Virus record (IMG/VR): IMGVR_UViG_3300042402_004657
Location: 1 to 46,650 of that record
From: a virus
DNA length: 46,650 nucleotides
Direction: 5' to 3' (one strand)
Shown here: piece by piece, positions 2,842 to 32,174 of the stretch
Numbering within the stretch: position 1 is the stretch's first letter
Layout: every line of letters starts with the position of its first letter
Program-made: the position numbers and the translations under genes
Notes under the pieces: model-generated
What the model saw: the letters and a program-made list of their open reading frames with translations, nothing else
Told to the model about the DNA's origin: nothing
Databases searched by the model: none

Positions 2842-4725
2842 TTATGTTAATTTACCATGAGCTCTTAAAAGTCCTGGAGGTATTATAGCCGCACCGCCTC
2901 CTGGCGCAACGGGTATTTGTGCATAATCTAAACTAACTTGTACAAATGAATTTTGATCCATTTCTTTTTGGTGCCCTTTAATTATTGAAGAGAAGAATGC
3001 AACAACATTATTGTCTTGACCATATAGATCACCAGTTGGTATACCATTTGCTTCTAGTAGTTCACCAATATTCATAATTGCTCTATCTTCACTATAACCT
3101 GGAAGTCTTTTTGATAATTGTAATAGTAATCCAGGTATTTTTTGGGATATACCAACTTTTAATTGATTTAATAATGCTAAAATAGCATTGTAAAAATCAT
3201 CACATGATGCAATGCCAATAAATGGAATTAACGCTGCTAAAATATCAATCAATGCTGTTAATATTACTAGATATCTCTTTTTAGAATTCTTTAAAATTCT
3301 TTTTGCTAAATCTTTTAATATTAATGCTAACTGTGGTTTAACTTTTGTCCAAAAAACAGTTAAAAATTTATTAAAAATGTCTTTAATAACATTATACATC
3401 ATTTTAGTTAAATTCTTAATTATTGTTTTTATTGATGTAATGGCATTAATCGCAGTAGATTTTATTATCTTCCAAAGAATAACAATTGGAAAAAACATTT
3501 TTGCTGAAAATATAGAAGATATTAATGCTTTAGGTAAATTTTTTAAAGAATTAAAATCTAGATTTGCTGCAAATTGTGGATACGGTATTGATAAGTTTTG
3601 GCTTGCTGCGTCTTTTGCAACCTTTGATAACGCGCTGTTATATAAATCAGTAATATCATTCTTGGTTGTAGAAAAAAATGCAAAATCTTCAACGATACCT
3701 TGATTGACTGGGATTGTAAAATTATTACAATCAGTAAATTTTAAAACTTTTTGATATCTTAAGTTCTCATCATCAATGTCAATACCCTCAACATCATCAA
3801 AGTTAAAAAACGCCCCGAAATCCACATCATTCTCATTAAACTGATCAGCTGGGTTTTGTTTTAATTCATTATTTTGTGGCTTAGCACAAACTGCACAAAT
3901 CTTATCAATAACTCTAGTTAATTTATTTAAATTAACATCATAGCTACCATTGGTCACGTTTATTCCACCAGCTGGAATTAACATAGAAAAACTATTTTTT
4001 AGTACATCTGATATTTTTGGGAATTCAATTGTTTCATAGTATTTTGTGATAAATTGATCAATTGTTGTTCCGCCTCCTTGAAGTCCCTCTATTTTATATT
4101 TCTGAATTGCACTATCCCATTCCATAGAAAATAACTGACTTTCATCTATTGACTGAAATATATAAACACCACCGCCGAACTTCTCGTAAAATATTTTATT
4201 CATTTTTACTTTATTACCGCTAGCTTGTGGGCCTTCATATATTATCTTACCTAAACCTGTTTGTGGATCTGTTTGTAGCATATCTAAAAGATCAAACTCT
4301 TTTGGTGATATTGTTAAACCGCTAACCGGCATAGGTGTGGTTGTTCCACAGTTCATATCACTGTCGCTAGCAAAAAACAACTTTCTAACATTGTCTAAAA
4401 AAATTGGCTTGATTGATTCGGTTGTTTCTTTTACAGATTCTCTGGTAATCCTTCTTAACATGCTTTCTCCGTCCTTTTGTTTAACGGGAAGTATTTTTTG
4501 TAGATCTGTGGTTATTTTTTCAAATATATTTTCAACGTTAGGTAGTTTCTGTTTTGCTTTATCTGCATAGCTTTCTAAGGTACTACCAATTTGTCCTTGT
4601 AAATTTTCTAAGGTATCGTCATATTTCTTCAATAGATCATCAACGCCTTTTTTTGTATCATTGGCTTGTTGAATAATTTTAAACTTGGATTTAATCTCCC
4701 TTTGTTTAGTTTTTAAATCTATCAT
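2842..4725 (-). CDS. Large virion structural protein, likely baseplate/hub associated
   Basis: 627 residues. The N-terminal ~60 residues are a charged coiled coil (Lys/Asp/Glu heptads). The middle is mixed alpha/beta with a C-A-V-C pair near residue 275. Residues about 400-510 form long amphipathic to hydrophobic helices rich in Ile, Leu and Lys that could insert in or associate with a membrane. The C-terminus is Pro/Gly-rich. I do not recognise a family. It starts with a TAATG overlap with the 124-residue gene upstream and lies one base from the small coiled-coil gene downstream, in a cluster with the gp5-like spike. A tail or baseplate role, perhaps ejected or membrane-contacting, is inferred from context only. 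Confidence 0.6.
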   Translation of the reverse strand: MIDLKTKQREIKSKFKIIQQANDTKKGVDDLLKKYDDTLENLQGQIGSTLESYADKAKQKLPNVENIFEKITTDLQKILPVKQKDGESMLRRITRESVKETTESIKPIFLDNVRKLFFASDSDMNCGTTTPMPVSGLTISPKEFDLLDMLQTDPQTGLGKIIYEGPQASGNKVKMNKIFYEKFGGGVYIFQSIDESQLFSMEWDSAIQKYKIEGLQGGGTTIDQFITKYYETIEFPKISDVLKNSFSMLIPAGGINVTNGSYDVNLNKLTRVIDKICAVCAKPQNNELKQNPADQFNENDVDFGAFFNFDDVEGIDIDDENLRYQKVLKFTDCNNFTIPVNQGIVEDFAFFSTTKNDITDLYNSALSKVAKDAASQNLSIPYPQFAANLDFNSLKNLPKALISSIFSAKMFFPIVILWKIIKSTAINAITSIKTIIKNLTKMMYNVIKDIFNKFLTVFWTKVKPQLALILKDLAKRILKNSKKRYLVILTALIDILAALIPFIGIASCDDFYNAILALLNQLKVGISQKIPGLLLQLSKRLPGYSEDRAIMNIGELLEANGIPTGDLYGQDNNVVAFFSSIIKGHQKEMDQNSFVQVSLDYAQIPVAPGGGAAIIPPGLLRAHGKLT

Positions 4726-5099
4726 TATATCTCATACTTTTGATCTTGTCCCTTATCGTCGTTTCCAACTAGTTTTTCAAGCAACTCTCTATCCTCGTCA
4801 GTAAGTGTCATCTTTCCACCTGAAAACTTATCTCCAGATGCTGCACCTTTTTGAATTAGGGTATTTTGAATCTTAACCAAAGAGATTTTCTTTTCGGTAC
4901 ATTCATTTAAAATCTTTTGTTGCTCTTTAATTACCGGGCCTATAACGGACATGTCTTCAGATTCTTTCATAAAAGAAAGCATCTTTTTCATTATCAATGT
5001 GGCAGTATTCTTTTGCTCCACAATGTCAAAATAGATTTCTTGCATTAATGATAGTGCAGAGTCTGTATCTAGCGCTAAATTTTTCTTCGGTGGTCTCAT
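4725..5099 (-). CDS. Conserved-looking hypothetical protein, helical, late operon leader
   Basis: 124 residues, predicted all-helical: Met/Leu-rich helices (S-L-M-Q-E-I-Y-F-D-I-V-E) and an acidic C-terminus (D-E-D-R-E-L-L-E-K-L). No catalytic motif is seen. A TATTTAT motif lies only 3 bases before the ATG, so it probably heads the late operon running down to the gp5-like gene. A small structural or chaperone protein is possible; the function is unknown. Confidence 0.6.
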   Translation of the reverse strand: MRPPKKNLALDTDSALSLMQEIYFDIVEQKNTATLIMKKMLSFMKESEDMSVIGPVIKEQQKILNECTEKKISLVKIQNTLIQKGAASGDKFSGGKMTLTDEDRELLEKLVGNDDKGQDQKYEI

Positions 5100-9351: not shown

Positions 9352-9383
9352 AATATGTAGTTTTTAATAATCTTTTATTACCT

Positions 9384-17207: not shown

Positions 17208-17216
17208 CTATTTATA
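17208..17216 (+). promoter_or_regulatory. Late-promoter-like motif CTATTTATA
   Basis: CTATTTATA 4 bases before the ATG at 17221, directly after the stop of the lectin-like gene. Confidence 0.5.
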
Positions 17217-25584: not shown

Positions 25585-28422
25585 ATGGCAAATTCAAACA
25601 GAGTATTCGTGTCTCCGGGTGTGTACACATCAGAGAAGGATCTAACATTCGTAGCGCAAAGCGTTGGAGTTACAACATTGGGTCTAGTAGGTGAGACTTT
25701 AAAAGGTCCAGCATTCGAGCCAATCTTGATTTCTAATTTTGACGAATTTAAAACATATTTTGGTACTACCAGTCCAGCAAAATACGGAGATGGTAACCCA
25801 AAATACGAACTTCCATATGTCGCTAAATCATATTTACAAGAATCAAATCAATTGTTTGTAACTAGAGTTTTAGGATTAACTGGTTACAAACCAGGCAAAA
25901 CCTATGGAATTAAAACATTAGGCGGTGTTACTGTTGATCTAACAAGTACACCAACAACAAGCGGTAGCACATTAAATCCTACATCTTTAACAACAATAAC
26001 AGGTTCAACATTCTATGGTGAGCTTTCAGGTAAAACATCAACAGAAGGTACATCAATTACTGATTATATTCTTGCTGGATCAAATTCTAATGGAGCATAC
26101 TCTGTTAACGGATGGTTTACAATCGGTACAGTACCTGCATCTGCAACAAGTGGATTAACTGGAACACAGTTATTATCACCAATTGGAAATGCTAACAAAA
26201 ACTGGTACAACAACTTCTTTGTAAAAAGCGGTTCTACTGATTCAACAATTCATGGTGTTTATTCATACCTTTTTGTTTTAACTGGTGCATCTTCATTTAG
26301 TGTTACAAGATACAAGTATTCAGCTTCATTAAATGCTGATTATGCTGGTAGAACTGTATGTTTATTAAGATCTAGAGGTTCATACATATCAAATGCTCTT
26401 GTACATAGAGTAACTGGATCAACAGCTGTTCAAATTACGGGAGCAACTATTGATACCAACCCATTATCTGAATTTAACTTATCTGTTACTGATATTGCAT
26501 CAGTTGCACATAGCTTTAACTGTTCATTTGACATGTCTTCTTCAAAATACATTACCAAAATACTTGGTACAGATGTTTTTGATAAGAATATTATTGAATA
26601 CCCAGTTTATGTTCATGAAGTATATCCAAATTTAATAAACAACTTGTTTGAACAAGGTTTAATTAGAGGTTTAAGTACAGATGAACAAGTTTTAACTGAA
26701 AGTGATAACTTTGTTACACAATGGGATATGGCTGGATCATCAACAGTAGTTTCTGAAGTTAGAGGTGGAAAAGTTTTCGATCTATTCAATTTCTTAACTG
26801 TATCAGATGGAGACGCTTCTAACTATGAGGTTAAAATTACAATTGCAAATATTGACATTGACACAGCAGAATTTGATATTCTTGTTCGTGATTTTAATGA
26901 TACTGATGCAAATCCAGTTGTTTTGGAGAAGTTTACAAGATGTACAATGAATCCAGATCTACCTGGTTATGTTGGTAGAAAGGTTGGTACATCTGACGGT
27001 GAATACGAATTAAGATCTAAATATATTATGCTTGTTTTAGCTGAAGAACATCCAACAGATGCATTCCCAGCTGGTTTCAAGGGTGTAACAACAAGATCTG
27101 AAATAGGCGAGATTCTTTATAAAACAAAATATTATGATGCAGGTGATGTATTATATTATGATGCTAGCGGAAATCCAAACACAACAAATGGTGATAAAGT
27201 TAAAAAAGTTACTTTAGGTTTCTCTACTGATAATCACTTTGAATATGATAGAGATATGTTGAAATTTAAAAGCAGTAATGCTGCTGGAGCCACATTTGGT
27301 TTCCACTTATCAACAAATGCTTCTACAATAACTGGTATAACTGGTCATTACTTGTTTAAAACAACAGCATATGATTTAGAAGGAACTAGTAAAGGTAAAT
27401 TAGCAACTACACCATATAGAAAATTCACAATGCCAGTATTTGGTGGTTTTGATGGATGGGACATCTACAGAAACACTAGAACAAATGGTGACGGTTATAT
27501 ATTTGGTAAGTCAACTTATGTAAGTGGTCACACTGGTAATGGTGGTGTATTCAGCAACGCTGTTGGAAACTCAGATTACTATGCATTCTTACAAGGTATT
27601 GAAACATACGCAAACCCTGAAGCAGTAGATATTAACATATTTGCAACTCCAGGTATTGATTGGAATAACCACAGTTCTTTAGTAAATCAAGCAATTGATA
27701 TTATTGAGAATGATAGAGCTGACTCATTATACATTGTTAACTCGCCTAATTACACAACAGCAGATGAAACAATATCATCTCTAGATGATTTAGGTCTTGA
27801 TAGTAACTATTCAGCAACTTATTGGCCTTGGATTCAAGTAAGAGATACTGATAACGCAACACAACTTTTCATTCCACCAACAGGTGAAGTATTGAAGAAC
27901 ATTGCATTAACAGATAATGTTTCTTACCCTTGGTTTGCAGTCGCTGGTTACTCAAGAGGTCTTGTTAACGCTATTAAAGCTCAAAAGAAACTTACTCTTG
28001 ATGAAAGAGATGATCTTTACAAAGCTAGAATCAACCCTATTGCAACATTCTCTGATACAGGTACAATTATCTGGGGTAACAAAACGTTACAAGTTAGAGA
28101 ATCAGCTTTAGATAGAATCAACGTGAGAAGATTATTATTAAGAGCTAGAAAGTTAATTTCTGCAGTAGCTGTAAGATTATTGTTTGAACAAAACGATGAG
28201 CAAGTTAGACAAGAATTCTTAAGATTGGTTAATCCAATTCTTGAGTCAATTAAGAAAGAAAGAGGTTTATATGACTTCCGTGTAAGTGTATCAAACGATC
28301 CAGAAGATATTGATGCAAACACATTGAGAGGTAAAATTTATATCAAACCTACAAGAGCATTGGAATTTATTGATGTAGAATTCATCATCACTCCAACAGG
28401 TGCTTCTTTTGAAAATATCTAA
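25585..28422 (+). CDS. 18: Contractile tail sheath protein (gp18-like)
   Basis: 945 residues (T4 gp18 is 659). The N-terminus R-V-F-V-S-P-G-V-Y-T-S-E and the later V-A-K-S-Y-L-Q-E-S-N-Q-L-F-V-T-R-V are the conserved sheath start. The last ~200 residues carry the sheath core: W-F-A-V-A-G-Y-S-R-G, L-Y-K-A-R-I-N-P-I, V-R-R-L-L-L-R-A-R-K and R-G-K-I-Y-I-K-P-T-R-A. The sheath forms the contracting outer tube of the tail. Residues about 110-330 are Ser/Thr/Gly-rich, an expansion probably exposed on the outside. A strong terminator follows and the tube gene comes next, as in T4. Confidence 0.92.
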   Translation: MANSNRVFVSPGVYTSEKDLTFVAQSVGVTTLGLVGETLKGPAFEPILISNFDEFKTYFGTTSPAKYGDGNPKYELPYVAKSYLQESNQLFVTRVLGLTGYKPGKTYGIKTLGGVTVDLTSTPTTSGSTLNPTSLTTITGSTFYGELSGKTSTEGTSITDYILAGSNSNGAYSVNGWFTIGTVPASATSGLTGTQLLSPIGNANKNWYNNFFVKSGSTDSTIHGVYSYLFVLTGASSFSVTRYKYSASLNADYAGRTVCLLRSRGSYISNALVHRVTGSTAVQITGATIDTNPLSEFNLSVTDIASVAHSFNCSFDMSSSKYITKILGTDVFDKNIIEYPVYVHEVYPNLINNLFEQGLIRGLSTDEQVLTESDNFVTQWDMAGSSTVVSEVRGGKVFDLFNFLTVSDGDASNYEVKITIANIDIDTAEFDILVRDFNDTDANPVVLEKFTRCTMNPDLPGYVGRKVGTSDGEYELRSKYIMLVLAEEHPTDAFPAGFKGVTTRSEIGEILYKTKYYDAGDVLYYDASGNPNTTNGDKVKKVTLGFSTDNHFEYDRDMLKFKSSNAAGATFGFHLSTNASTITGITGHYLFKTTAYDLEGTSKGKLATTPYRKFTMPVFGGFDGWDIYRNTRTNGDGYIFGKSTYVSGHTGNGGVFSNAVGNSDYYAFLQGIETYANPEAVDINIFATPGIDWNNHSSLVNQAIDIIENDRADSLYIVNSPNYTTADETISSLDDLGLDSNYSATYWPWIQVRDTDNATQLFIPPTGEVLKNIALTDNVSYPWFAVAGYSRGLVNAIKAQKKLTLDERDDLYKARINPIATFSDTGTIIWGNKTLQVRESALDRINVRRLLLRARKLISAVAVRLLFEQNDEQVRQEFLRLVNPILESIKKERGLYDFRVSVSNDPEDIDANTLRGKIYIKPTRALEFIDVEFIITPTGASFENI

Positions 28423-28715: not shown

Positions 28716-29204
28716 ATGGCAGATTTATTAATGAAAATGCCGGTTCCATATGAACCGAAACGTAAAAATAGGTTTATCTTAAGATTCCCATCATCTTTAG
28801 GTATTAACGAATGGTATGTAACATCTACTGCTCGTCCTAGTGCTAAAATTAACTCAACAGAAATACCATTTTTAAATACTTCAACATATGTAGCTGGTAG
28901 ATTCACTTGGGACCCAATCAAGGTTACATTTAAAGACCCAATTGGTCCTTCAGCATCACAAGCTCTTATGGAATGGTTCCGTCTTCATGCTGAATCCGTA
29001 ACCGGTAGAATGGGCTACGCCGCTGGTTATAAAAAGAATGTAGAATTAGAAATGTTAGATCCAACAGGAGTAGTAGTCGAAAAATGGATTCTTGAAGGTT
29101 GTTTTCTGACTAGTCTAAACTTTGGTGATTTGAACTATTCTCAAGATGAATTAGCAACAATTGATGCTGAATTGAGAATGGATAGATGTATCCAAGTATA
29201 CTAA
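28716..29204 (+). CDS. 19: Tail tube protein (gp19-like)
   Basis: 162 residues, the same length as T4 gp19 (163). The features of the tube family are present: K-R-K-N-R-F-I-L-R-F-P near the start, W-Y-V-T-S-T-A-R-P, F-T-W-D-P-I-K-V-T-F-K-D-P, A-L-M-E-W-F-R-L-H, and the final L-T-S-L-N-F-G-D-L-N-Y with a closing strand. The protein stacks as hexamers to form the inner tail tube. A strong terminator follows, so it appears as its own transcription unit, consistent with high copy number. Confidence 0.92.
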   Translation: MADLLMKMPVPYEPKRKNRFILRFPSSLGINEWYVTSTARPSAKINSTEIPFLNTSTYVAGRFTWDPIKVTFKDPIGPSASQALMEWFRLHAESVTGRMGYAAGYKKNVELEMLDPTGVVVEKWILEGCFLTSLNFGDLNYSQDELATIDAELRMDRCIQVY

Positions 29205-29344: not shown

Positions 29345-30085
29345 ATGGATAATATTAACCCAATGGTTGCATATGATGTGGTATCTCTACCATCACAAGG
29401 TGTACACTATTCCAATGGAAAGAAAACATTAAGAGTAGCTTATCTTACAGCTGCTGATGAAAATATTCTAATGTCACCAAATTTAATACAATCTGAAACG
29501 GTAGTTGATGAATTGTTAAAAAGAAAGATATTAGATAAAGATCTTAGTTATGATGATCTTGTTGAGGAAGATAAACAAGCTATTTTAATCTTTTTAAGAA
29601 ATACTGCGTTTGGTACGGAATATACATTAACATTAACAGATCCGGCAACCAAGAAATCTTTTGAAGGAACATTGGATTTATCAGTATTAAAAGTTAAAGA
29701 ATTTAAATTAGTTGCAGATTCAAATGGTGAATATTCATATATATTACCAATGTCTAAGAAAAATATAACATTCAACTTCTTAACAAACACACAAGAAAAA
29801 GAATTACAGAATATTAAAGATTCAAGCGGAACAACAGTTTCACCACTCAACACTAAAAAACTTGAAATGATGATTAAATCTGTTGATGGTCAGCGAGATC
29901 AAATGGCAATATATCAATTTATTCAAAATCTACCAATCAAAGATTCACAAGATTTTAAAAAGTTTGTTTCTGAAAATAAACCAGGTTTAGACCTAATAGT
30001 TGATGTAATCGCCCCGTCAGGAGAAAAAGTCCCAGTTTTGGTTGACTTTGGGGTGGAGTTTTTTCGTCCCTTCTACGGAATATAA
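29345..30085 (+). CDS. 26: Baseplate hub assembly/tail chaperone protein, T4 gp26-like family
   Basis: 246 residues. The start (V-S-L-P-S-Q-G-V-H-Y, then L-R-V-A-Y-L-T-A-A-D-E-N-I-L) is the signature of the T4 baseplate protein family that includes gp26/gp28 (LPS-x-G-x-x-Y and LT-x-x-D-E-x-I-L). The C-terminal part has I-Q-N-L-P-I-K-D-S-Q and V-P-V-L-V-D-F-G-V-E-F-F. It lies between the tube and tape-measure genes, the usual place of tail assembly chaperones. Near its end is TTT-TTT-C, followed by a +1 frame open for 47 more codons without any ATG, so a longer product by frameshift is likely. No late-type motif was found upstream. Confidence 0.8.
   Translation: MDNINPMVAYDVVSLPSQGVHYSNGKKTLRVAYLTAADENILMSPNLIQSETVVDELLKRKILDKDLSYDDLVEEDKQAILIFLRNTAFGTEYTLTLTDPATKKSFEGTLDLSVLKVKEFKLVADSNGEYSYILPMSKKNITFNFLTNTQEKELQNIKDSSGTTVSPLNTKKLEMMIKSVDGQRDQMAIYQFIQNLPIKDSQDFKKFVSENKPGLDLIVDVIAPSGEKVPVLVDFGVEFFRPFYGI
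30059..30067 (+). promoter_or_regulatory. Candidate +1 programmed frameshift site TTT-TTT-CGT
   Basis: In the zero frame the codons are GAG TTT TTT CGT. The Phe tRNA on the second TTT (30062-30064) can move forward one base to TTC, still fully cognate, and read GTC next. This joins codon 240 of the gp26-like gene to the +1 frame that stays open to 30209. Confidence 0.55.
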
Positions 30086-30209
30086 GAAAAACCAAATACA
30101 GATTATTTTATTTCTTTTAACAAAAGGATTTACCTATCAAGACATATTAATATTACCAATACACGAAAGAAGTAATATCATTAATGCTTTATTAGAAAAT
30201 AACGGATAA
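30066..30209 (+). CDS. +1-frame extension of the gp26-like protein (frameshift product, 47 codons)
   Basis: The frame reads V-P-S-T-E-Y-K-K-N-Q-I-Q and continues with I-I-L-F-L-L-T-K-G-F-T-Y-Q-D-I-L, I-L-P-I-H-E-R-S and N-I-I-N-A-L-L-E-N-N-G, then TAA at 30207-30209. It has the helix-turn-helix look of tail chaperone C-termini and normal codon use. The frame is open back to 30009 but contains no ATG; only TTG codons at 30042 and 30048 could start it independently. The fused product would have 287 residues. It ends 15 bases before the tape-measure start. The alternative is a separate gp51-like small protein started at TTG. Confidence 0.55.
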   Translation, partial: VPSTEYKKNQIQIILFLLTKGFTYQDILILPIHERSNIINALLENNG

Positions 30210-30224: not shown

Positions 30225-32174
30225 ATGGCAGAAGATAGAAAAGGGTTTTATGAGTATCTCAAAAGTTTAGGTATCGCAGATGATGATGCAAAAGCAGGTG
30301 CAGATAGGTATCAAAAATCTATTGATGAAGTAGCATCAAAAGCAGCTAGATCATCTAGATCAACAAGCACCACTAGTGGTACTGGTAGTGTTATTAATGC
30401 ATTAGGTGCCGGTTTTATTGACCAACAAGTAAATACATTAGGTAGAATTAGTACAAGTACAGGTAAGGCAATACTTGAGGGTATTACCAAAAGCGCTTCA
30501 CTTAATCCAGTAACAATTATAAAAGGTGTATTAGATGGTGCATTAAAAGGTGGTGAAGCCATACTTGGGGATTTAGCTGAATTAGACAAAGAATTACTAG
30601 AACGAGTTAGAGGTGCAGGAGGATATGTGGGGGATGCTGCAACAGACATGATGAGATCAGTTAGGGTTGCCATGATTGCAGCTCAAGAAGCTGGAGCATC
30701 TACAGATGATACATTAGGGGCAGTAAAAAGCCTAATGGAAAACTCTGAAAGAATGTCTATCTATGCAGAAAAAACAATTTCAGATGGAATGCTAGCTTCC
30801 GTTGCTTTTACCAAAAATGCTAGAACAATATTAGAAAATGCTGAAAACTTTAGAAACGTTGGTATAGGTTTAGATGATGCATCTAAATCAATTACAGCCA
30901 TAGGTATGGATTCGGTAAAGTTAGGTTTAAGCGCTAAAGCAACTTCTGAAACATTAATTAAAAATTTAGGTAGCTTAAATGCATACGGATTCCAAAACGG
31001 AATTAAAGGTTTAGGTAAAATGGTCCAAGAGGCACAATCACTTAAAATCAATATGGATGATGTGCTAAAGGTTGCTGATAAATTATATGATCCAGAAAGT
31101 GCAATTAACCTTGCTGCAAATCTACAAGTTGTTGGAGGTGCGTTTGGTGATTTAGGTGACCCAATTAAATTAATGTATGATGCTACAAACAATGTTGAAT
31201 CATTACAAACAAGTATTATTGGTGCAGCTAGAAGTTTAGCAACATATAATGTTGAACAAGGTAGGTTTGAAGTAACAGGAGTCAATTTAAGACGTGCTAA
31301 AGCTATGTCTGATGCTTTAGGTATATCAATGGGTGAATTAACTAATATGGCTGTTAAAGGGGCTGCCAAGTTTGAAGCGATGAGTCAATTAGACATATTC
31401 CCATCTTTAAATGATGAACAAAAAGAATTTGTTTCAAATTTAGCCACAATGAAAGATGGTAAAGTTGGTTTTGATATTCCTAAAAGTATGGTCGAAAGAC
31501 TTGGTTTAGATAACGTTAAAGATGGTTTCGTTGGATTAAGTGATTTATCAGATAAACAAATTGTGCAACTACAAGCGATGCAAAAAAGTGCAGCAGATGA
31601 AAAACCAATAGACATCGCAAGAAATCAATTTAATGAAACAACAAAAATATTAAATGTTGCAACAGCAATTTACTTAAGGATGATGGATGATGGAAGAAAG
31701 GGACCAATAGGTCAAACAGCATCAAAAGGTATGGAAGCAGCAGCTAATTTTATGCAAAAAACATTTAACCCATCTGAAGATAGTAGTGGAGAAACGGTTA
31801 AAAAATTAGCTGGCGCAGCAATAGATGCTGGTGGTGAGGCAATGTCTGCAGTTGCAGATTATATGAAAAATTTAAGTCCAGAGATGATGGAAACACTTGG
31901 TTTACTTAAGAAAAAACTTAGTGAAGCAGCAAAAGATATAAATGTTGAAGATCTTAAAAATAAAGGAGGAAATATGCTTGAAAAGGGAGGTGAAAAAGTA
32001 AAAGAAGCATATGATGAAATTAAAAAATTCTTTGGTGAACTTACTGTAAAAGTTGATATCAACAGCAATAGTCCTGAATTAGCTGGTATTGTGGTTAACG
32101 AAATAGACAGAAACCCACAATTAAAAGCTACTCTAGCTTCTAATATAGTTAAGAGTACTAACAACTACACATAA
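30225..32174 (+). CDS. Probable tail tape measure protein
   Basis: 649 residues, long helical, Ala/Gly/Lys-rich, with repeated short motifs such as L-K-G-G-E-A-I-L-G-D-L and G-A-K-F-E-A-M, and no Cys. The central region (A-T-S-E-T-L-I-K-N-L-G-S-L-N-A-Y, D-P-E-S-A-I-N-L-A-A-N-L) resembles tape measure proteins. By the usual rule of about 1.5 angstrom per residue it would measure a tail near 97 nm, close to T4 (gp29 has 590 residues). It follows the tube and chaperone genes, the standard order. The C-terminal ~60 residues end in a beta-like segment. Confidence 0.65.
   Translation: MAEDRKGFYEYLKSLGIADDDAKAGADRYQKSIDEVASKAARSSRSTSTTSGTGSVINALGAGFIDQQVNTLGRISTSTGKAILEGITKSASLNPVTIIKGVLDGALKGGEAILGDLAELDKELLERVRGAGGYVGDAATDMMRSVRVAMIAAQEAGASTDDTLGAVKSLMENSERMSIYAEKTISDGMLASVAFTKNARTILENAENFRNVGIGLDDASKSITAIGMDSVKLGLSAKATSETLIKNLGSLNAYGFQNGIKGLGKMVQEAQSLKINMDDVLKVADKLYDPESAINLAANLQVVGGAFGDLGDPIKLMYDATNNVESLQTSIIGAARSLATYNVEQGRFEVTGVNLRRAKAMSDALGISMGELTNMAVKGAAKFEAMSQLDIFPSLNDEQKEFVSNLATMKDGKVGFDIPKSMVERLGLDNVKDGFVGLSDLSDKQIVQLQAMQKSAADEKPIDIARNQFNETTKILNVATAIYLRMMDDGRKGPIGQTASKGMEAAANFMQKTFNPSEDSSGETVKKLAGAAIDAGGEAMSAVADYMKNLSPEMMETLGLLKKKLSEAAKDINVEDLKNKGGNMLEKGGEKVKEAYDEIKKFFGELTVKVDINSNSPELAGIVVNEIDRNPQLKATLASNIVKSTNNYT

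Follow-up and report, generated by a model that had tools for sequence, protein, structure and literature searches.

Evidence for a probable +1 programmed frameshift in the tail assembly chaperone gene of a T4-related phage

The window, by which we mean the whole 46,650-nt stretch of viral DNA analysed here, carries at positions 29345–30085 (+ strand) a gp26-like gene for a protein of 246 amino acids that reads as a short tail assembly chaperone (TAC-N). The protein matches PF12322 (T4_baseplate) with E = 2e-6 and 28.1 bits, above the curated cutoff of 24.5, and phrog_150 (baseplate hub) with E = 1.5e-10, which bears out the gp26-family assignment of an earlier note on this DNA. The upstream neighbours are identified by profile. 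They are a gp19-like tail tube protein (28716–29204, + strand; phrog_4542, E = 3.4e-29; PF06841, 28.9 bits against a cutoff of 28.2) and a tail sheath protein of 945 amino acids (25585–28422). The best matched stretches of the sheath lie at residues ~600–943, beyond a long N-terminal part. The downstream neighbour, a probable tape measure protein of 649 amino acids (30225–32174, + strand), is assigned by position only. It gave no phrog match at E 0.001 or 0.1 and no Pfam match above cutoff, and BLASTP did not relate it to the tape measure annotated in Flavobacterium phage immuto (E = 0.20); a BLASTP comparison of a 1590-residue downstream gene product with the same immuto protein returned nothing. 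Gene order is alike in immuto and SP-15, in which the gene after the TAC-C region is annotated as tape measure.

The 3′ end of the chaperone gene reads GAG TTT TTT CGT CCC TTC TAC GGA ATA TAA. It is overlapped by a +1 frame that is open from 30009 to 30206 and closes with TAA at 30207–30209, 124 bases beyond the 0-frame stop. This frame contains no ATG, and a TTG is present at 30042; its coordinates and phase are as the earlier note had given them. The candidate slip site, TTT TTT C, is located at 30059–30065 (+ strand) and is followed by the rare codon CGT in the A site. The note was right to single out this heptamer, which proved invariant in the close relatives, but placed it just before the overlap, whereas it lies inside. 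Translated from the slip site, the +1 frame gives FFVPSTEYKKNQIQIILFLLTKGFTYQDILILPIHERSNIINALLENNG, and the region 30066–30209 (+ strand) would encode TAC-C, the extension of a long form termed TAC-NC, an assignment based on conservation, pN/pS and a profile match.

A single open frame of 66 codons in DNA of 31% GC could be due to chance, but its conservation lifts it above that expectation. An IMG/VR scan with the window protein yielded relatives of 57–100% identity, and among the best 80 of 89 loci, 6 end before the stop codon and 74 are readable. The earlier note had proposed looking for decay of the +1 frame by stops in close relatives; in 73 of the 74 (best 80 of 89) the frame is open to 121–133 nt past the stop. 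The exception, locus L037, has a deletion (4680–5000) that begins at the end of the chaperone gene and runs into the following one, by which the extension and the next start are lost; it is probably a defective genome or a misassembled contig. A distant set was collected with the homologues from immuto and Microcystis phage Mel-JY01 as queries (at least 80 loci each, drawn from at least 600 stretches each). Three of its 160 loci among the matches listed end early, and in all 157 readable ones the +1 frame stays open beyond 75 nt after the stop, for some of them as far as the contig end. The pooled set comprises 230 loci among the matches listed, many of them near copies. Counted from the slip site, the extension is 48–52 amino acids long in the window clade and mostly about 70–90 in the immuto and Mel clades. 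The extension peptides share FF(V/A/G)(P/L)...Y, then a GF(T/S)-like turn and an MP(I/V)xxR-like motif, with variation. In the 73 intact loci (best 80 of 89), the −1 frame closes 11–65 nt beyond the 0-frame stop, so they have no −1 extension of the cyanophage type.

Substitution patterns support a coding role for the extension. For 35 representatives at 97% identity, drawn from the window and the 73 loci (best 80 of 89), the +1 frame beyond the 0-frame stop has a pooled pairwise pN/pS of 0.44, compared with 0.89 and 1.36 for the two remaining frames, in which each sequence has on average 3.7 and 3.6 stops; for the 0-frame gene itself the value is 0.36. Since pS over all pairs is high (0.76), the better number comes from the 16 closest representatives, with 0.27 for the extension and 0.23 for the gene. 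Judged from these comparisons, the extension is a conserved coding domain under purifying selection. The chance that the +1 frame stems from an artefact of annotation or sequencing, or merely happens to be open, is practically negligible: an open stretch of 41 codons is not rare in one AT-rich sequence, but here the finding recurs in over 200 contigs and isolate genomes, and the pattern is that of purifying selection.

The slip site is invariant in the close relatives. TTTTTTCG is found in 74/74 loci that reach the stop (best 80 of 89), all of them with TTT TTT C, and TTT TTT in 35/35 representatives of the window clade (best 80 of 89), followed by CGT (27) or CGC (8). In 157 distant loci among the matches listed, we find TTT TTT TGG CCT (113), TTT CTT TGG CCT (34), TTT CTA TGG CCT (4), CTT TTT TGG CCT (3), TTT TTT TAC CCT (2) and TTT CTT TAC CCT (1). 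Re-pairing in the +1 direction is possible at every one of these sites: at the window-type TTT TTT C in 74/74 loci (best 80 of 89), and in the distant loci among the matches listed through a second codon TTT or CTT followed by T in 153/157, while the 4/157 with TTT CTA need the first TTT for it. In loci L048 and L050–L053, a TAG in the +1 frame stands two bases before TTTTTTC, which leaves only the final 26 nt of the 0-frame gene for the frame change. The A-site codon is CGT or CGC, not a stop, in 74/74 loci (best 80 of 89). From its sequence, the shift would work like that of RF2 without being of the RF2 type, as the A site holds a sense codon.

The run of Ts, six in the window clade and seven in 115/157 of the immuto and Mel relatives (among the matches listed), would also permit transcriptional slippage to make the long form. 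We give this a very slim chance, since TTT CTT TGG in 34/157 loci (among the matches listed) and TTCTTTC in GXN1 contain no run of more than three Ts, and the Shine-Dalgarno (SD)-like and hairpin signals described below fit an effect on translation. Shifting by −2, which occurs in the tail chaperones of phage Mu, leads to the same frame as +1, and the window TTT at 30062–30064 could indeed move back two bases onto TTT. By eye, however, a −2 movement mispairs in GXN1 (TTC TTT CGT) and in the four TTT CTA TGG loci, where +1 gives UUC, and the spacing of the SD-like site fits +1; a slim chance is left for this mechanism.

Alternatively, the extension could be a separate small gene whose translation begins internally, at a +1-frame start codon with the SD-like AGGAG upstream to serve it. 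SD-like sequences do occur about 24–33 nt upstream of the slip site, TTG is present in the +1 frame at −17 (17/26) and −11 (16/26) of window-clade representatives, and small genes are annotated in this region in immuto and Mel-JY01. No start position is common to all loci, however. Between the +1 opening and 30 nt past the 0-frame stop, ATG is absent in 126/230 loci and all of ATG, GTG and TTG in 37/230 (among the matches listed), so that the separate ATG-started gene considered in the earlier note finds no consistent start codon. In 5/26, 9/44 and 28/58 representatives (90% identity), the +1 frame has no ATG, GTG or TTG between a point 45 nt upstream and one ~9 nt inside the slip region. In L048, the +1 stop sits just before the slip site and the next ATG in that frame comes 70 nt past the 0-frame stop. 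Internal initiation is disfavoured and keeps a small chance.

In the window, GGGGTG (30050–30055, + strand) ends 3 nt (GAG) before the first slip codon, and the window clade has GGGGTG or, in some rows, GGGGTT or GGGGTA at this distance from the first TTT. The GGG codon is retained in 35/35 representatives, though GGG is used at 3.9 and GGT at 41.7 per 1000 codons, and the 9-mer adjoining the slip site has a mean anti-SD energy of −6.2 kcal/mol in this clade, against −3.8 kcal/mol in synonymous shuffles. A second SD-like sequence, AGGAG (30019–30023, + strand), lies inside the RNA element described below: the motif TC(A/T)GGAGA occurs between the hairpin arms in 25/28 rows of alignment A1 (counted by eye), and the 9-mer whose last base lies 33 nt ahead of the slip site has a mean anti-SD energy of −7.2 against −4.1 in synonymous shuffles. 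Elsewhere the adjacent excess is small (−4.5 against −3.8 in the immuto clade, −3.6 against −3.1 in the Mel clade), and the main SD-like signal is found about 24 nt upstream (−8.5 against −5.6 and −5.3 against −1.9, respectively). The stimulators are therefore not uniform, with an adjacent anti-SD excess that is clear only in the window clade. The A-site codons are rare, at 2.5 (CGT) and 0.16 (CGC) per 1000 compared with 29.7 for AGA, although CGY rarity may be a by-product because the codon is also constrained by the +1 peptide.

According to a review (PMC5009743), SD-like sites stand 3 nt upstream for +1 shifts and 9–14 nt upstream for −1 shifts. GGGGTG followed after 3 nt by TTT matches the +1 spacing in the window clade, while the immuto and Mel clades match it weakly. 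S-PM2 and P-SSM2 match the −1 spacing, with GGAGGGA placed 9 nt ahead of the P-site TTT. The rule is not general among −1 phages, as the SD-like sites of phiN3, ValKK3 and avDM12 stand at different distances and no good SD-like site was found in Atu_ph07, PA5oct, XacN1 and RAS14.

Immediately upstream of the slip site, a candidate 5′ RNA element extends over 30010–30055 (+ strand), with an outer stem 30010–30015/30050–30055 (CGCCCC/GGGGTG) and an inner hairpin 30027–30031/30044–30048. The 51 nt before the slip site have a minimum free energy below that of synonymous-codon shuffles (p < 0.05) in 31/35 representatives, with a mean z of −2.78; eleven control blocks in 16 genes gave mean z values of −0.97 to +0.17. 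The structure pairs 88.5% of cells in 26 distinct rows, a value reached by 1/500 shuffles, and CCCC/GGGG is invariant in 26/26 distinct rows. Changes on both sides are seen at 3/11 of its pairs (13/500 shuffles as high), whereas further pair types are no better than in shuffles (392/500), and RNAalifold on A1 (28 rows) found no pair with double changes. The case from covariation is limited by the invariance of the four central C–G pairs, by codon constraint and by relatedness.

In other clades, the same adjacent block is weaker yet still the lowest (mean z −1.08 for 44 immuto-clade and −1.05 for 58 Mel-clade representatives). The signal depends on the measure used: the window hairpin has a z of only −1.19 against dinucleotide shuffles, next to the slip site in the window clade 24-nt blocks rank at 0.31 and 30-nt blocks at 0.09 (null 0.5), and in the immuto clade a second 30-nt block ranks as low (0.27) as the adjacent one (0.33). 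Downstream, the 85 nt that follow the slip site in the window show no unusual stability (z +0.53). As only 3 nt separate the element from the slip site, a ribosome must melt the hairpin to get there. The hairpin may help because it refolds once the ribosome has passed, or because it governs access to GGGGTG.

We compared 21 phage records for extensions in a shifted frame. An open +1 extension is present in seven (LIS04, SP-15, RM378, GXN1, Mel-JY01, immuto and LR756508) and a −1 extension in 13 (P-SSM2, S-PM2, phiN3, ValKK3, avDM12, Atu_ph07, PA5oct, RaK2, XacN1, RAS14, Astolliot, K475 and, less clearly, LR756511). Stenotrophomonas phage IME-SM1 has TAC-C in neither shifted frame and may use another solution. 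After TTT TTT TGG, Rhodothermus phage RM378 (3175 onward) has an open +1 frame, in an extension that lacks a clear TAC-C motif; this phage may make a different long form. RAS14 and XacN1, with −1 extensions, have a run of seven Ts ~35–45 nt before the 0-frame stop, earlier than in cyanophages.

By hhalign, the window-clade extension matches the immuto and Mel extensions (97.5%, E = 6e-12) and 11 −1-frame extensions of T4-like phages (94.3%, E = 1e-7), and the immuto/Mel profile matches the −1-frame extensions at 95.9%; the match of the window-clade extension to those of SP-15, LIS04 and GXN1 is low (35.8%). These profile matches suggest that the window extension is homologous to TAC-C of other T4-like phages. 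The −1 set in turn aligns to the C-terminus of T4 gp51 (58%, E = 1e-4), while direct matches to that region are weak (window 1.5%, E = 0.034; immuto/Mel 0.2%, E = 0.34), and adding the extension to the window protein did not raise its phrog_150 score (42.1 compared with 42.0 bits). T4 gp26 and gp51 both belong to PF12322 and phrog_150, and gp51, unlike gp26, extends to the C-terminus of phrog_150. It thus appears that T4 encodes the short form and the long form in separate genes. The apparent fusion of this domain to the chaperone domain in gp51 also argues against expression of the extension by internal initiation, with the caveat that the direct match between the window and gp51 is weak.

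A tree of 38 chaperone-domain rows places the +1 and −1 directions in blocks, with 2 changes per label compared with shuffled means of 11.6 and 10.5. Its details are unsure owing to the long branches of RM378, T4 gp26, gp51 and K475. When it was rebuilt without the T4 rows, the best tree again had 2 changes, and a tree with all −1 rows together fitted as well (p-AU 0.515; 0.547 when RM378 and K475 were also removed). The block structure and the unrejected grouping of −1 rows indicate that direction follows lineage and has changed at least once. We dropped the idea that direction flipped more than once, as a single change suffices under both rebuilds. A further alignment with the extension pieces kept separate (A2) was set aside because the pieces aligned poorly.

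An AlphaFold2 (AF2) model of the 0-frame protein (38 rows) reached a pLDDT of 86.9. The best two of 992 aligned PDB chains were 3klu (YqbN, Z 5.1) and 2ob9 (the HK97 tail assembly chaperone, Z 4.9). YqbN belongs to a chaperone family. A Z near 5 is weak and could reflect a common arrangement, though both top rows point the same way. Foldseek searches of BFVD with the TAC-N model returned SP-15 and several T4-like baseplate hub or hub assembly proteins, and a PDB sequence search with TAC-N found no relative (one de novo protein, E = 0.11). A single-sequence AF2 model of the fused 287-residue form had a pLDDT of 36.4 and was left unused.

Taken together, a +1 programmed frameshift is by far the best reading of the locus, ahead of its rivals. 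We interpret the locus as encoding a pair of tail assembly chaperones in a T4-related phage with a contractile tail, the long form being made by a +1 frameshift at TTT-TTT-C, with a probability of about 0.87, and the tail-chaperone and frameshift reading of the earlier note is supported by the comparative tests. In the mechanism that we infer, most ribosomes would stay in frame and stop at the normal end to give TAC-N (246 amino acids), while a fraction would shift by +1 at GAG TTT TTT CGT, the P-site tRNA-Phe re-pairing from UUU to the overlapping UUU or UUC. The shifted ribosomes would read the 47-codon +1 extension and produce TAC-NC (287 amino acids). Three features probably help the shift: pairing of GGGGUG with the 16S anti-SD at 3-nt spacing, slow reading of the rare CGY codon in the A site, and the hairpin immediately upstream. 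By analogy to lambda gpG/gpGT, TAC-N would coat the tape measure and TAC-C would recruit the tube protein.

More tentatively, a single chaperone family may have switched its direction of shifting and kept the same short and long products, using +1 with an SD-like site at 3 nt and an upstream hairpin in one lineage and −1 with an SD-like site farther upstream in cyanophages. The 5′ hairpin would in that case refold behind the ribosome and pull the mRNA forward. We regard this scheme as possible but doubtful; if true, the hairpin would be a new kind of +1 stimulator, in a large group of mostly uncultured phages.

Vladimirov et al. 2022 reportedly found frameshifting conserved in several T4-like groups. 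Later papers credit Vladimirov, Gautam and Davidson (2022) with T4 26/51 as chaperones and with frameshifting in T4-like phages (cited in PMC12846349 and PMC10885494), and mention T4-like phages that carry a short and a fused long chaperone gene (PMC10885494). The novelty expected in the earlier note for a shift in a gp26-type gene hence applies to the +1 direction, which seems unreported, and not to frameshifting in T4-like chaperones, which is known. We found no +1 shift in such a gene among the papers listed in a search of mainly open-access literature. Within that scope, what seems new is the +1 direction across a large clade, the occurrence of both directions in one family, and the upstream RNA element; the hairpin, the upstream SD-like element and the link to T4 gp51 had no place in the earlier note.

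The window shares PF12322, phrog_150 and the short/long architecture with T4 gp26/gp51 and T4-like chaperones, whose −1 extension profiles match its own. T4 uses two genes, cyanophages and others a −1 frame (in S-PM2 and P-SSM2 after T_TTT_TTC), whereas the window has a +1 frame, an SD-like spacing of 3 nt and an upstream hairpin. Lambda gpG/gpGT likewise derives a short and a long chaperone from one gene by a shift near the 3′ end, but in the −1 direction and at another slip site (PMC5009743). Bacterial RF2 (prfB) resembles the window in the +1 re-pairing of a P-site CUU or UUU with an SD-like site 3 nt upstream (PMC5009743, PMC8710568). The slip region of Flavobacterium johnsoniae prfB, AGGAGGUAUCUU UGA C, is like that of the window. 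In RF2, however, the A site holds a stop, whereas the window has a sense codon (CGY in the window clade) and its product is a phage chaperone.

Precedent for +1 shifting in assembly or structural genes of tailed phages is provided by the haloarchaeal myovirus HSTV-2, for which the review calls the +1 shift 'very likely', and by Listeria phage PSA, in which the shifts differ in taking place on proline codons in capsid and tail-shaft genes (PMC5009743). The chaperones of Vandenendeviridae and Andersonviridae are similar in that the shifted frame is open in all relatives and a poly-T motif is conserved, but their direction is −1 and the motif is GTTTTT (PMC12846349). For Bacillus phage 0305phi8-36, a two-gene tail chaperonin was proposed in 2007, with short and long forms made without frameshifting, as seems true of T4 (PMC2147016). 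The 2016 review describes tail-chaperone frameshifting as widely conserved except in T4 (PMC5009743).

Later work put the T4 pair in two genes, and to the −1 and two-gene states the present locus would add a third, a conserved +1. The three states form a natural experiment on what determines direction: SD spacing, A-site codon or upstream structure. None of the six annotated +1 records (immuto, Mel-JY01, GXN1, RM378, SP-15 and LIS04) links the two frames, and the proteins that they list therefore do not include the long form; LR756508 is unannotated.

A short element near the end of the extension is a separate observation. The sequence TATTTATA occurs nine times in the window, which is not above chance overall, and eight of the nine copies precede, by 4–36 nt, the start of an ORF that runs in their own direction (one of these starts being TTG). 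Copies are located at 17209, 23540, 28672, 30213 and 43098 on the + strand and at 9383, 15702 and 21723 on the − strand. From its sequence and placement TATTTAT looks like a late-promoter element, and it is found within 30 nt after the extension stop in 73/73 relatives (best 80 of 89).
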